A DNA stretch of 20,109 nucleotides. Origin: a virus. The notes under the pieces are model-generated. The model made no database searches and had not been told where the DNA came from. It worked only from the letters and a program-made list of their open reading frames with translations. Each line of letters begins with the position of its first letter. The first letter of the stretch is position 1. A program made the translations under genes and the position numbers. The stretch covers positions 1-20,109 of the IMG/VR virus record IMGVR_UViG_3300042527_000242; one strand, written 5' to 3'. Below, in pieces: positions 15,341 through 20,109 of the stretch.

Positions 15341-15589
15341 ATGAAGATTCCGAACTGGCAGCACCACTCCAGAAAGGAGAAAAAGCGCCATCTCAAACCT
15401 CAAGCTCTACGTCAAGCTAAAGCACGAGCTAAAAACCTGATAGGACGGTTGAAAAACTGTCACAAGGACTCGCCTAAAGGCGGGTCTTTTTCGTATTATA
15501 GCTTCAGTTCAAACAAACTCTCATGGCTGTTAACTACGAAATCAAAGGTCAACTGGCACGACTGCTTGCTACAGAAGACCTCGTTGTAG
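15341..15589 (+). CDS. Possible small basic protein (82 aa), uncertain
   Basis: This frame encodes MKIPNWQHHSRKEKKRHLKP followed by a convincing basic helix, QALRQAKARAKNLIGRLKN. The first 42 or so residues are strongly Arg/Lys/His-rich and could bind nucleic acid. Beyond residue 43 the frame runs through the terminator hairpin at 15467-15491 (DSPKGGSFS) and then 67 bases into the VWA gene in another frame, which is unlikely to be functional coding sequence. It starts about 17 bases downstream of the expected start of the 15290 promoter. Either it is a real short gene whose C-terminus has lost its stop, or the transcript is a small RNA and the ORF is accidental. A 35-aa frame, MIINQTFKTNEDSELAAPLQ onward (15313-15420), overlaps and is a weaker candidate. 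Confidence 0.35.
   Translation: MKIPNWQHHSRKEKKRHLKPQALRQAKARAKNLIGRLKNCHKDSPKGGSFSYYSFSSNKLSWLLTTKSKVNWHDCLLQKTSL
15467..15491 (+). terminator. Intrinsic terminator upstream of the VWA gene
   Basis: GACTCGCC at 15467-15474 pairs with GGCGGGTC at 15479-15486 (8 bp with one G-U pair) around a TAAA loop, followed by five Ts at 15487-15491. It ends either the gp46/105-aa transcript or a short transcript of about 168 bases from the 15290 promoter. A TATTAT (15494-15499) follows it and could be the -10 of a VWA-gene promoter, but no -35 box is visible. Confidence 0.85.
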
Positions 15590-17664
15590 AGCACAAGAAG
15601 GTCTCTACAGCGTGTTTTAACGTCCATACCCGTGTTTTGACCCTTCCCCTTTGGGAACGGGCTTCTAACGCCGTATACGACATGCTGGTGGCGCATGAGG
15701 TTGGTCATGCACTCTATACTCCCGATGAAGATTGGACTGAGCAGACAAAGATTCCTCAGTCTTATGTTAATATTGTTGAAGACGCTCGTATTGAGAAACT
15801 GATGAAGCGTCGTTATGCTGGTCTTGGTAAAACTTTTTATAATGGTTATAGTGAATTGTCCGATCAAGATTTCTTTGAACTTGGTGATGATGATTTGAGT
15901 ACCTATAGTTTTCCTGATCGTGTCAATTTGTGGTTTAAGATTGGAAACTTCACCAATGTTCTGATCGAGCGTGGTGAAGAGATGGAAATTGTCAATTTGA
16001 TTGCTGAAGCAGAAACTTTTGCAGATGTGTTGATTGCTGCAGAAGAAATGTATAAACTTTGTAAAAAAGAACAAAATCAGCAACAAGAACCTGTTACAGC
16101 TTCTTTCAACAAAGATAATAATAATGAAGTAGAAATTTTTGAAGATTCTGAACAAAAAACCGAACAAGAACCTTTTCAGGAAACTCAAGGTCAATCTGAA
16201 TCTTCTTCGGATCAATCAAATGTGGAGAATGAAAAGAATGATGGAAACGTAGATCAAACTGGTGGTAAGCATGATGATCCTGAAATTAAAACAGATCAAC
16301 GCTTGAAGGATGCAATCGAACAACTATCTTCGATGGATCCTTTCCATCAAGAAAATTCTTATATTGAATTTCCTACTTTGAAACTGAATACTATCATTGC
16401 TTCAAATAAAGATATCTACAATCACATTGACAACTATTGGAGTCAATATGAAAATGATGATGTCTTTAAATTTGTTGACAAAGAATATCACGAGTTCAAG
16501 CGTTCGGCACAGAAAGAAGTCAACTATCTGGTGAAAGAGTTTGAATGCCGCAAGGCAGCAGACTCCTATGCCCGTGCTACTACTGCCCGCACTGGTGTTC
16601 TGGATTGTTCCAAACTTCACACCTATAAGTACAACGAAGATCTTTTCAAGAAAGTTACAACTCTTGCTGAAGGCAAAAGTCATGGATTGATTTTTGTTTT
16701 GGATTGGTCTGGTTCAATGGATCGTGTTCTGTTGGATACGATCAAACAATTGTTTAACTTGGTTTGGTTTTGCAAGAAAGTTGCGATTCCTTTTGAAGTT
16801 TATGCTTTTACAAATGAGTGGAAACGTGTAACCTATGATGAAAACAATCGACCAGTGTTTCCTCAAAAAAATTGTGAAAAAGAAGCTGGTAAGTTTCACG
16901 TTCCTGAAGACTTCGCTTTGATGAACTTTTTTACAAATAAAACCAAATCATTTGAACTTGAAAAGCAAATGCTTTCAATTTATCGAATTGCTAAATTCTA
17001 TCGTACTCGCTATGATACGACGTATTCAATTCCCGATCGTTTGTCTTTGTCTGGAACTCCTTTGAATGAAGCTATTATTTCTCTGAATGAAATCATTCCA
17101 CAATTCCAACAACAAAACAAATTGCAAAAAGTACATACGATGATTCTTACTGATGGTGAAGCTCATGCTATGAATTATTGTGCTGAGTTTGAACGTAAGG
17201 AAAAGTATATTGGTGTTCGTGGTTTTAATCCTTCTACTTGTATGCTTCGTGATCGAAAAACTGGTAATGTTTATACTATGGATCGTAACCTGGATATGTG
17301 CGTTGGATTTACCGATATGCTTCTTCGTTATCTTCGCAATCGTTATCCTAATGTTAGTTTTATTGGAATGCGTGTTCTTGGTTCTGGTGAAGCCCATTCT
17401 TTCATGCGTCGCTTCCTTCGCCTAAACCAAGAAAAAATGGAGAAGCTTCAGCAAAATTGGAAAAAGCAAAAATCATTTTCTATTCAAACCGAAGGTTATC
17501 ATACTTACTTTGGTATCGGTGCAAATTCTCTGGCAGTAGATAATGAATTCGTTGTTTCTGATAATGCTTCAAAAACTGAAATTAGCAACGCCTTTAAAAA
17601 ATCTATGAGTTCTAAAAAGTTTAATAAAAAAATTCTTAATGAGTTTGTAGAACTGATTGCATGA
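15523..17664 (+). CDS. HEXXH metallopeptidase-like / VWA (MIDAS) protein, CobT-like
   Basis: This 713-aa protein has two recognisable parts. The N-terminal domain carries a zincin motif, HEVGHALYTP with HEVGH at residues 58-62, and a candidate third ligand in NIVEDARIEKLMKRRYAG (Glu86 or Glu91). Residues about 180-255 are a Gln/Glu/Ser/Asp-rich linker. The C-terminal domain is a von Willebrand A fold with a complete MIDAS: DWSGS at 394-398, Thr512 in SGTPLNEAI and Asp544 in LTDGEAH. The preceding TGVLDCSKLHTYKYNEDLFK resembles the lead-in to the CobT VWA domain. VWA proteins of this type work with MoxR/CobS AAA+ ATPases, and a CobS-like gene lies 1.5 kb downstream. The phage may use the pair for metal insertion, protein remodelling or proteolysis; the sequence does not decide which. 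No export signal is seen. Confidence 0.85.
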   Translation: MAVNYEIKGQLARLLATEDLVVEHKKVSTACFNVHTRVLTLPLWERASNAVYDMLVAHEVGHALYTPDEDWTEQTKIPQSYVNIVEDARIEKLMKRRYAGLGKTFYNGYSELSDQDFFELGDDDLSTYSFPDRVNLWFKIGNFTNVLIERGEEMEIVNLIAEAETFADVLIAAEEMYKLCKKEQNQQQEPVTASFNKDNNNEVEIFEDSEQKTEQEPFQETQGQSESSSDQSNVENEKNDGNVDQTGGKHDDPEIKTDQRLKDAIEQLSSMDPFHQENSYIEFPTLKLNTIIASNKDIYNHIDNYWSQYENDDVFKFVDKEYHEFKRSAQKEVNYLVKEFECRKAADSYARATTARTGVLDCSKLHTYKYNEDLFKKVTTLAEGKSHGLIFVLDWSGSMDRVLLDTIKQLFNLVWFCKKVAIPFEVYAFTNEWKRVTYDENNRPVFPQKNCEKEAGKFHVPEDFALMNFFTNKTKSFELEKQMLSIYRIAKFYRTRYDTTYSIPDRLSLSGTPLNEAIISLNEIIPQFQQQNKLQKVHTMILTDGEAHAMNYCAEFERKEKYIGVRGFNPSTCMLRDRKTGNVYTMDRNLDMCVGFTDMLLRYLRNRYPNVSFIGMRVLGSGEAHSFMRRFLRLNQEKMEKLQQNWKKQKSFSIQTEGYHTYFGIGANSLAVDNEFVVSDNASKTEISNAFKKSMSSKKFNKKILNEFVELIA

Positions 17665-17686
17665 GGGGCTAGTCCCCTCTTTTTTT
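17663..17686 (+). terminator. Intrinsic terminator at the end of the VWA gene
   Basis: GAGGGG at 17663-17668 pairs with CCCCTC at 17674-17679 around CTAGT, followed by seven Ts at 17680-17686. The stem begins within the stop codon TGA (17662-17664). The last T is shared with the late promoter that follows. Confidence 0.9.
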
Positions 17687-17693
17687 ATAAATA
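17686..17693 (+). promoter_or_regulatory. T4-type late promoter (exact octamer) before the 455-aa gene
   Basis: TATAAATA begins at the last T of the preceding terminator. The expected start is near 17699, about 15 bases before the ATG at 17714. It marks the 455-aa gene as a late gene transcribed separately from the VWA gene. Confidence 0.67.
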
Positions 17694-17713
17694 AAAAAAA
17701 GTGTTTCAGTCAA

Positions 17714-19081
17714 ATGAATTTAACAGAAGCTTATAAACAAATCTATTATACTGAGCAAAGTCTTTATGAAGATCTTTTTGCATTCTTATTAGAATTTGCT
17801 TTTGATACTGAAATTGATGCAGAAATTTTTGCCAAGCAATTAATTGAAAATAATTTAATTTCAGATTTCTTAAGCGAACTTGCAGAAGAATGGGAAGTAG
17901 ATATATCATCTTGTCTTGTAGAAGCTAATCTTCTTGGTGGTGCAAGAGCAGCTATTAATGCATTAAGTAGAGCTGGAAGATCAAAAGCTGGCTTGCAGGC
18001 TGGAACTGCATTGGGTAAAAAACCAGAATCAATAGTTAGAGGTGCTGCAGCTTCTACATCAATTAGATCAGCAAGAGCTGCAAGGACTGCAGCTCCTGTA
18101 CAGAAGCCAGGAAAATATGCGGCTATGCAATTCAAAAAAAGAATTGATACTTCTTTAAATAGACCAGCATTACCACCAGCAAAATCTGCTGCACCAACAT
18201 CAGCAGTAACTGCACCAAAGCGTACTCCTGCAGACGCTGGGATGCCATTTAGAGCCACTGGTGCTGGTGGTGATGCTCGCACACAAAGACTTGCAACTCA
18301 AGCTGCTCCTGGTTCTGGATTAAATCCAAGAGAAGTTAGAGCACAAGCAAATAAAATGACTGGTGGTGCTGATGCTTTAAACAAAGCAAGAAGAGCCATG
18401 GCTGGTGCTGCAGCGGCTGGTCTAGCTGCAAGTGCTGCTGCTCCAGTAGTTCAAGACAAGGCAAAAAAGTCCAATCCCGAATCCAGCATCAACAAGTACA
18501 ATACCATGGATTCGGATGGTAAAATCAGAAATCGTTTAAGAGTTGGAGCTAAAATTGTAGGAACTGGAAGTGTATCTGGCGATTTTGATGCTGCTTTCAA
18601 AAAAGCTAGAACTTCTGGTTCTAAGGAATTTGAATTCCGAGGTAAAAAATATAATACGAAATTGAAGAATGAAGATAGGAATGATTATTTTGATGATGTT
18701 TTAGAGTATTTAGTTTCTGAAGGATTTGTTGATAATAATCAAGACGCTTTAATTATGATGGCATCATTAGATGAAAATGCAATTGCTAAAATTGCTGCTG
18801 GTGCTATTAAAAATATAATTAAATCTGGCACTGCTAAACTAACAAAAACTGCACTTCCACCAAAAATGGATCCAGCATTAAAAGCTGTAAAGGATTCAAT
18901 TAAACAAAAATTTGGAGCAGCATCTTTGGTTGGCACACCTGAAAATAAGTATGCTGCTGCAAAACAAGCTGCAGAATTGAGAAAAAATCCACCACCAAAA
19001 CCAAAGTATAGAGACCCATTCCCAGGAGATGTTTATTCCAAAAGTGACTTTGGAATTCGTGGCTATAGATCTGGAGATTGA
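17714..19081 (+). CDS. Putative virion-internal protein with cleavable acidic N-terminus (455 aa)
   Basis: I do not recognise a named family. I chose the ATG at 17714 because an upstream TTG at 17657 would place the terminator and late promoter inside the gene. Residues 1-70 are acidic and helical (MNLTEAYKQIYYTEQSLYED to DISSCLVE). Residues about 71-270 are Ala-rich and basic (ARAAINALSRAGRSKAGLQA; RRAMAGAAAAGLAASAAAP). Then comes GDFDAAFKKARTSGSKEFEF followed by RGKKYNTKLK, a motif common in phage virion-associated proteins. YFDDVLEYLVSEGFVDNNQD follows, then a Lys/Pro-rich C-terminus ending GIRGYRSGD. Leu68-Val69-Glu70 before Ala71 fits the gp21 cleavage rule. Late promoter, composition and site together suggest a protein packed in the prohead and trimmed there; this is inference. 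It is flanked by strong terminators on both sides. Confidence 0.75.
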   Translation: MNLTEAYKQIYYTEQSLYEDLFAFLLEFAFDTEIDAEIFAKQLIENNLISDFLSELAEEWEVDISSCLVEANLLGGARAAINALSRAGRSKAGLQAGTALGKKPESIVRGAAASTSIRSARAARTAAPVQKPGKYAAMQFKKRIDTSLNRPALPPAKSAAPTSAVTAPKRTPADAGMPFRATGAGGDARTQRLATQAAPGSGLNPREVRAQANKMTGGADALNKARRAMAGAAAAGLAASAAAPVVQDKAKKSNPESSINKYNTMDSDGKIRNRLRVGAKIVGTGSVSGDFDAAFKKARTSGSKEFEFRGKKYNTKLKNEDRNDYFDDVLEYLVSEGFVDNNQDALIMMASLDENAIAKIAAGAIKNIIKSGTAKLTKTALPPKMDPALKAVKDSIKQKFGAASLVGTPENKYAAAKQAAELRKNPPPKPKYRDPFPGDVYSKSDFGIRGYRSGD

Positions 19082-19104
19082 GGACACTTTTTAAACTGTC
19101 CACT

Positions 19105-19128
19105 GGGGGGTTTACTACCCCCCTTTTT
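19105..19128 (+). terminator. Intrinsic terminator after the 455-aa gene
   Basis: GGGGGG at 19105-19110 pairs with CCCCCC at 19118-19123 around a 7-base loop, followed by five Ts at 19124-19128. A small upstream hairpin (GGACA at 19082-19086 with TGTCC at 19097-19101) starts directly after the stop codon. Confidence 0.9.
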
Positions 19129-19135
19129 GCTTTAT

Positions 19136-19162
19136 ATTGGCTTTGTTGACATTCAAACCAAT
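19136..19162 (+). promoter_or_regulatory. Hairpin or operator overlapping the cobS start codon
   Basis: ATTGG at 19136-19140 is complementary to CCAAT at 19158-19162, and TTTG at 19142-19145 to CAAA at 19154-19157, leaving one bulged C (19141) and an 8-base centre TTGACATT that contains a consensus -35 hexamer TTGACA (19146-19151). The right arm includes the A and T of the start codon. No convincing -10 lies 16-18 bases after TTGACA; TATTAT at 19175-19180 is too far. It could be a translation-controlling hairpin or a repressor site. Confidence 0.45.
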
Positions 19163-20109
19163 GCCTCGCAAACTTATTATGACTAACGATCAAATCATTG
19201 AAGATCTTAAGGCAATGTACGGCACTGAAATCACCTCTGGTGATGTTCGTGGTTACTGTGCCATGAAAAACATGTCTTATCCGACTGTGACTAAGCGACT
19301 TGAGAATTTTAAAACCGATCGCGGTCGTTGGAATCTTGAAGTGACGCAAGAACGTGTTGAAGAGATTGAACGTTCCTTTAATGCACCTTCTGTGACTCCA
19401 GAAACTGAACATAGTCTTATTCCAGAAAAAGATGCTACTTTCGTCAAGTTTGGTAACTTTAACGATATTAAAAAAATTATTCAGTCCCGTCTCTTTTATC
19501 CTACGTTCATTACGGGTCTTTCGGGTAACGGTAAAACGTTCTCGGTGGAGCAAGCTTGTGCTCAACTTGGTCGTGAGTTGATTCGTGTAAACATCACTAT
19601 CGAGACTGATGAGGATGATTTGATTGGCGGTTTCCGTTTGGTCAATGGTGAAACTGTTTGGCATAACGGCCCAGTCATCAAAGCCATGGAACGTGGCGCA
19701 ATCCTTCTTCTTGATGAAATCGATCTGGCATCTAACAAGATTCTTTGTCTTCAGTCTATTCTTGAAGGTAAGGGTATCTTCCTCAAAAAAATTGGTCGTT
19801 GGGTAAACCCTGCTGCTGGTTTCAACGTTGTTGCTACTGCCAACACCAAAGGTAAAGGTAGCGATGACGGTCGCTTCATCGGCACTAACGTTCTCAACGA
19901 AGCATTCCTTGAGCGTTTCCCTGTGACCTTTGAGCAGGCATATCCTGCTCCTGCAATCGAACAGAAGATTCTGGAAGGCATTGCTCTTGATCTTGGTGTG
20001 GAAGATCGTGACTTCTGTAAGCGCCTGGTTGACTGGGCAGATGTGATTCGTAAAACTTTTTACGATGGTGGGGTTGAAGAAATCATTTCTACTCGTCGCC
20101 TTGTTCACA
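19161..20109 (+). CDS. cobS: CobS-like AAA+ ATPase (3'-partial)
   Basis: The frame is open from the ATG at 19161 to the window end, giving 316 complete codons with no stop. An N-terminal segment of about 60 residues looks like a helix-turn-helix (SGDVRGYCAMKNMSYPTVTK then RLENF). The AAA+ core follows: Walker A GLSGNGKT at 119-126, TDEDDLIGGFRLVNG near 149-163, Walker B ILLLDEID at 181-188, sensor-1 ATANT at 225-229, and the arginine-finger segment NEAFLERF at 246-253. This is the MoxR/CobS clade; CobS of bacteria powers cobalt insertion into the corrin ring with CobT and CobN. Cyanomyoviruses commonly carry cobS, but no CobN or other B12 gene is visible here. A second in-frame Met at 19179 is an alternative start. 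Confidence 0.9.
   Translation, partial: MPRKLIMTNDQIIEDLKAMYGTEITSGDVRGYCAMKNMSYPTVTKRLENFKTDRGRWNLEVTQERVEEIERSFNAPSVTPETEHSLIPEKDATFVKFGNFNDIKKIIQSRLFYPTFITGLSGNGKTFSVEQACAQLGRELIRVNITIETDEDDLIGGFRLVNGETVWHNGPVIKAMERGAILLLDEIDLASNKILCLQSILEGKGIFLKKIGRWVNPAAGFNVVATANTKGKGSDDGRFIGTNVLNEAFLERFPVTFEQAYPAPAIEQKILEGIALDLGVEDRDFCKRLVDWADVIRKTFYDGGVEEIISTRRLVH

Follow-up and report, generated by a model that had tools for sequence, protein, structure and literature searches.

The virus record IMGVR_UViG_3300042527_000242 (IMG/VR), whose entire 20,109 bases form the stretch analyzed here (the window), is a fragment of a T4-like cyanophage (Kyanoviridae), and its closest relative is Synechococcus phage DSL-LC03 (89% covered, 78% identity). 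Its gene content comprises tail-sheath to capsid genes, UvsW, gp55, gp47, and gp46, followed by two genes that are the subject of this study: one encoding a 713-amino-acid (aa) protein with a VWA domain, and one encoding a CobS-like AAA+ ATPase (Table 1). This gene pair is present in essentially all cyanobacterial T4-like phages and is usually filed under vitamin B12 synthesis. Our analysis indicates that the pair is probably a phage MoxR-VWA machine with an N-terminal zincin domain, acting in ATP-driven remodeling and cleavage, rather than in B12 synthesis.

Table 1. Features of the gene pair in the window (pLDDT, predicted local distance difference test; pTM, predicted template modeling score; MIDAS, metal ion-dependent adhesion site)
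Feature	Position	Strand	Evidence
Zincin-linker-VWA protein, 713 aa (phrog_459 'peptidase')	15523..17664	+	Open reading frame; phrog_459 E=2e-256; orthologues in 463 phage records
N-terminal minigluzincin-like domain, residues 1-185	15523..16077	+	AlphaFold2 pLDDT 90, pTM 0.86; Foldseek best PDB matches ArdC, selecase, PprI/IrrE
HEVGH zinc-site motif, residues 58-62	15694..15708	+	H58, E59, H62 invariant; within model helix 49-65
N-x2-E-D-x-R-I-E segment, residues 83-91	15769..15795	+	N83, E86, D87, R89 invariant; within helix 79-97
Acidic low-complexity linker, about residues 190-275	16090..16347	+	pLDDT mostly <50; variable in alignment
VWA domain, about residues 385-650	16675..17472	+	pLDDT 81-95; Foldseek best match NorD VWA in NorQD, 9qhe_G, E=2.3e-4
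MIDAS DWSGS, residues 394-398 (plus T512 at 17056-17058 and D544 at 17152-17154)	16702..16716	+	Five residues invariant
CobS-like (MoxR/CGN-type) AAA+ ATPase, 3' end cut by record end	19161..20108	+	PF07728 E=2.4e-18; CobS TIGR01650 55.9 bits; phrog_249

A conserved zinc-site motif in the VWA protein

A first-pass annotation of the window had placed an HEVGH motif at residues 58–62 of the 713-aa protein and a MIDAS at D394, S396, S398, T512, and D544, and the open reading frame (ORF) matches this exactly. Pfam and NCBIfam profile searches with the protein returned nothing significant, and phmmer against the PDB found no sequence relative. Because an HExxH motif arises by chance in 2.5% of shuffles of the protein, conservation was needed to decide whether the motif is real. 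HExxH was found in 80/80 close orthologues from the first-round IMG/VR set; the sole long ORF without it (locus L167) is truncated before the N-terminal domain. Addition of a more distant second set brought the alignment to 157 sequences, 36 of them non-redundant at 70%, with a lowest identity of 21%. In these 36 sequences, H58, E59, H62, T66, N83, E86, D87, R89, I90, and the five MIDAS residues were 100% conserved, and only 56 columns of the protein reached 97% conservation. The invariance of His58, Glu59, and His62, which the first-pass annotation had proposed as a check, thus holds across the orthologues, and on this conservation HEVGH is more than a chance occurrence.

A full-length model built from 27 sequences had a poor N-terminus, so the N-terminal domain (N-domain) was modeled separately from a diverse set of 72. 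The resulting model of residues 1–185 consists of a helix, three strands, the HExxH helix, and the helix that carries E86, which is the order of elements expected of minigluzincins; E86 is likely the third zinc ligand. When the model was compared with the PDB by Foldseek, ranks 1–9 were zinc peptidases (ArdC, selecase, PprI/IrrE, and BlaR1), and ZMPSTE24 and Wss1 were found at lower ranks. The probabilities for the top zincins were 0.97–0.99, yet their E-values were weak (0.02–0.2, best 0.024), and the weight of this model-based evidence lies in the concentration of zinc peptidases among the top matches, not in the E-values. The predicted N-terminal fold, a further point raised in the first pass, has its matches among zinc peptidases and not CobT. 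For the VWA part, the best fold match was the NorD VWA domain bound to NorQ.

The AAA+ partner and viral relatives of the pair

The CobS-type AAA+ gene reported near the VWA gene does lie downstream of it. Homology to DSL-LC03 sets its start at ATG 19161, whereas mechanical ORF calling gives TTG 19137. The record end cuts the gene at 20108, so that it lacks about 55 residues relative to the 371-aa DSL-LC03 orthologue. The protein matches the AAA_5 family (PF07728) with Walker A and B motifs (Walker A GLSGNGKT, LLDEID, and TAN) and is 25% identical to Sinorhizobium CobS; its full-length orthologue exceeds the cut-off of PF08406 (CbbQ_C), at 22.6 vs 20.6. Between the two genes lies an Ala-rich ORF of 455 aa (17714–19081, + strand). 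Other cyanophages hold different inserts at this position, so the slot is variable. A role for this ORF as a third component was rejected, as DSL-LC03 alone has a near full-length relative; two further phages gave short matches.

Among IMG/VR loci with at least 4.5 kb of downstream sequence, the AAA+ gene was found downstream of the VWA gene in 70/70 (median gap 279 nt), and the VWA gene was never seen without it. The totals of VWA and AAA+ genes in isolates, compared as totals rather than paired by record, are equal as well (365/365 for Synechococcus, 61/61 for Cyanophage, and 24/24 for Prochlorococcus). The AAA+ gene is also adjacent or close to the VWA gene in DLP6, Mosig, OC, SSU5, RHEph10, nickie, ICP2, Woes, and HVTV-1. 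AAA+ relatives without this VWA partner occur in Staphylococcus phages, and no such partner was present among the checked neighbors of the AAA+ relatives in Staphylococcus Stab21 and Sinorhizobium phiM5. Collectively, the computation establishes the architecture of the pair, its conserved zinc-site motif, and its constant AAA+ partner.

A peptide deformylase gene is located near the pair in Pelagibacter phage Mosig (L082 2560–3114) and is its immediate neighbor in Ochrobactrum phage OC (L083 4262–4756), possibly a link to N-terminal protein processing. Several bacterial and archaeal metagenome-assembled genomes (MAGs) of the species-genome collection (L181–L195) hold cyanophage- or pelagiphage-like contigs with the VWA gene, which probably represent binning contamination or infected cells.

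The predicted viral structures that match the N-domain belong to CobT- or VWFA-named proteins of uncultured phages and Gordonia phage GMA7, to VWA-type proteins of Haloarcula viruses HCTV-2 and HVTV-1, and to a 355-aa protein of HHTV-2, in which cobT is split into two ORFs (PMC8651126). The motif recurs in viral 'CobT' proteins from unrelated phages and haloviruses: direct reading of the sequences revealed HExxH with an N-x2-E-D-like motif downstream in DLP6, SSU5, RHEph10, Ochrobactrum phage OC, HVTV-1, and HCTV-2. In ICP2/JSF23, HExxH is kept and the downstream motif is NMVVDHNIE, with Asp replacing Glu; Woes has HEIGH and an AEDIRCD motif farther downstream, at a different spacing. An IMG/VR search with the Ochrobactrum protein as query gave no matches.

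Proposed mechanism and alternative readings

For the machine proposed here, we infer ring docking, zinc binding, proteolysis, and the nature of the target. The CobS-like AAA+ protein would form a motor ring, on which the VWA domain of the 713-aa protein would dock as NorD does on NorQ, and the zincin domain would be carried on the flexible acidic linker. H58, H62, and E86 are the probable zinc ligands, with E59 as the putative catalytic base. ATP hydrolysis may then move or unfold a target held by the MIDAS face, which the zincin domain would clip. Most likely, this target would be either a host protein to be removed or a protein of the phage itself that needs processing. Expression timing was sought in PMC5082946, and none was found there.

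Several observations weigh against this proposal. The E-values of the N-domain matches in the PDB are weak throughout (0.02–0.5). In Pseudomonas phage nickie (L178 3010–5094), a distant relative, SEISK stands in place of HExxH and NPLES in place of NxxED, and the MIDAS DCSGS is retained; since this natural inactive variant has lost the motif, the pair can work without HExxH, at least in nickie. In addition, the 713-aa protein (gene SSZBM1_163) is unnamed among the virion proteins in the accessible part of the S-SZBM1 report, so a lasting structural role in the particle is unsupported. This weakly favors a protein that acts while the phage infects or assembles over one that stays in the particle.

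In the published proposal (Liu et al., 2021, PMC8651126), the pair is a genuine CobST encoded by the virus, which would use the CobN of the host to insert cobalt and so raise the B12 supply for ribonucleotide reduction. The AAA+ protein is indeed similar to CobS and syntenic with a VWA protein, and in the family of one Synechococcus MAG, CobN was found in 60/61 genomes and CobT in 0/61. The host family evidently manages without CobT, which is compatible both with the absence of any need for a phage CobST and with the hijack idea. Against this proposal, the 713-aa protein has no match to PF06213, nor is any CobT model among its NCBIfam matches up to E=1. The AAA+ protein scores 55.9 bits against the CobS equivalog TIGR01650, about one tenth of the cut-off (558.55), and the roughly 55 missing residues cannot explain this gap. 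The invariant zinc site is lacking in real CobT: as the first-pass annotation had suggested for bacterial CobT, the HExxH motif is absent (0/35 sequences from plasmids and alphaproteobacterial genomes), and the CobT sequences read out show HD-x4 plus an E-x-A-R-x-E helix. One candidate CobT with HExxH (L214) was rejected because its CobT match starts only downstream of the motif. When whole families were compared by hhalign, phage and CobT proteins gave no significant overall match; with 81 and 30 sequences, only a 38-residue helix segment aligned (P=0.0015), so homology between the two N-domains is suggested at most. CobN is absent from the window, as had been noted, although the window is only a 20-kb fragment, and the CobN/ChlH family was found in 0/14 complete virus genomes with such pairs. 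As a side observation, among the control genomes, that of Caulobacter vibrioides gave CobT family matches and none for CobN (TIGR02257, PF02514). Related pairs were found in E. coli and Salmonella phages, and no CobN was found in the E. coli control genome, which disfavors hijack as a general role. SAR11 phages carry the pair too, and this counts against a viral CobST because, to our knowledge, SAR11 does not make B12. On balance, we regard cobalt chelation by the pair as quite improbable.

A second alternative keeps the MoxR-VWA architecture and dispenses with proteolysis: the pair would be a NorQD-like chaperone for metal insertion or remodeling, its N-terminal zinc domain serving to bind metal or substrate but not to cut peptides. 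In its favor, NorQD, to which the VWA part is closest in fold, inserts iron (PMC13036017), and one relative has lost the catalytic residue pattern. On the other hand, the HExxH Glu is invariant in 36/36 non-redundant members and is also present in DLP6, SSU5, RHEph10, ICP2, Woes, HVTV-1, and HCTV-2, and such invariance leads us to expect catalysis over mere metal holding; a chaperone without protease activity is thus unlikely. As for a degenerate, non-zinc scaffold with HEVGH by chance, the frequency of HExxH among shuffles is all that speaks for it, whereas the motif is invariant in all orthologues and the confident model has the HEVGH helix followed by a helix with invariant acidic residues, and we give this explanation hardly any credence.

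The preferred reading thus remains a protease-remodeling pair. It can be extended, tentatively, to the view that most viral 'CobST' pairs (those of cyanophages, SSU5-like and Gordonia phages, and haloviruses) belong to a single ancient class of AAA+-driven metalloproteases, with cellular CobT as a branch in which the metal site of the zincin domain disappeared on recruitment to cobalt chelation; we consider this possible but doubtful. The finding bears directly on the interpretation of cyanophage 'cobS', which ranks among the core auxiliary metabolic genes of these phages and is taken in ocean surveys as evidence of a viral boost to B12 synthesis. If the pair is a protease-remodeling machine, statements on a B12 boost drawn from cyanophage 'cobS' would have to be revised, and a gene pair universal among cyanophages would gain a testable function.

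Comparison with known systems

The 713-aa protein is a direct member of PHROG 459 'peptidase' (T4-GC 146, Kyanoviridae), from which it shows no difference; the family name gives no mechanism and omits the VWA domain. Liu et al. (2021, PMC8651126) named the cyanophage gene cobT and considered it "mistakenly annotated as a peptidase"; the word "mistakenly" is at odds with the zincin evidence, and given the conserved zinc site, the peptidase name has substance. Bacterial CobST resembles the phage pair in having a CobS-like AAA+ protein beside a VWA protein whose acidic linker is long, and a weakly similar E-x-A/D-R-x-E helix in the N-domain (the hhalign segment above). It differs in that real CobT lacks HExxH, the phage protein lacks a PF06213 match, and the phages lack CobN.

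NorQ/NorD (and CbbQ/CbbO) share with the pair a CbbQ_C-type AAA+ protein and a VWA partner whose N-domain is attached through a linker, and provide the best structural match of the VWA domain. In NorQD, which serves as a template, the VWA domain sits in the ring with a finger in the pore, and the linker-borne N-domain gives target specificity (PMC13036017, PMC9976466). In contrast, the Foldseek matches of the phage N-domain do not include that of NorD, and NorQD inserts iron in cNOR. The p618/p892 proteins of Acidianus two-tailed virus are likewise a virus-encoded MoxR-VWA chaperone pair, but they act in extracellular tail growth and, according to Iyer et al. (2021, PMC7824862), have no peptidase domain.

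The nearest precedent comes from the same paper. Its passages on group 2.2 jumbo phages report a MoxR-vWA pair (ASV44729/ASV44728), termed "previously unrecognized," that includes an N-terminal metallopeptidase and, citing the Acidianus two-tailed virus precedent, propose a role in virion assembly and peptidolytic processing. Like the cyanophage pair, it places a MoxR AAA+ gene beside a vWA gene with an N-terminal metallopeptidase, and a similar mechanism is proposed. It differs in having been reported for group 2.2; cyanophages and OC form group 2.1, to which these passages do not extend the claim, nor to smaller cyanophages, and the two pairs are likened here by architecture only. The first-pass suggestion of a protease or metal-handling remodeler of the MoxR-VWA kind, as an alternative to the cobalamin annotation, is supported, with protease activity predicted and the substrate putative, and it is not original. 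Taken together, these comparisons place the cyanophage machine in a kind that is not new, since Iyer et al. (2021, PMC7824862) independently proposed the same architecture.

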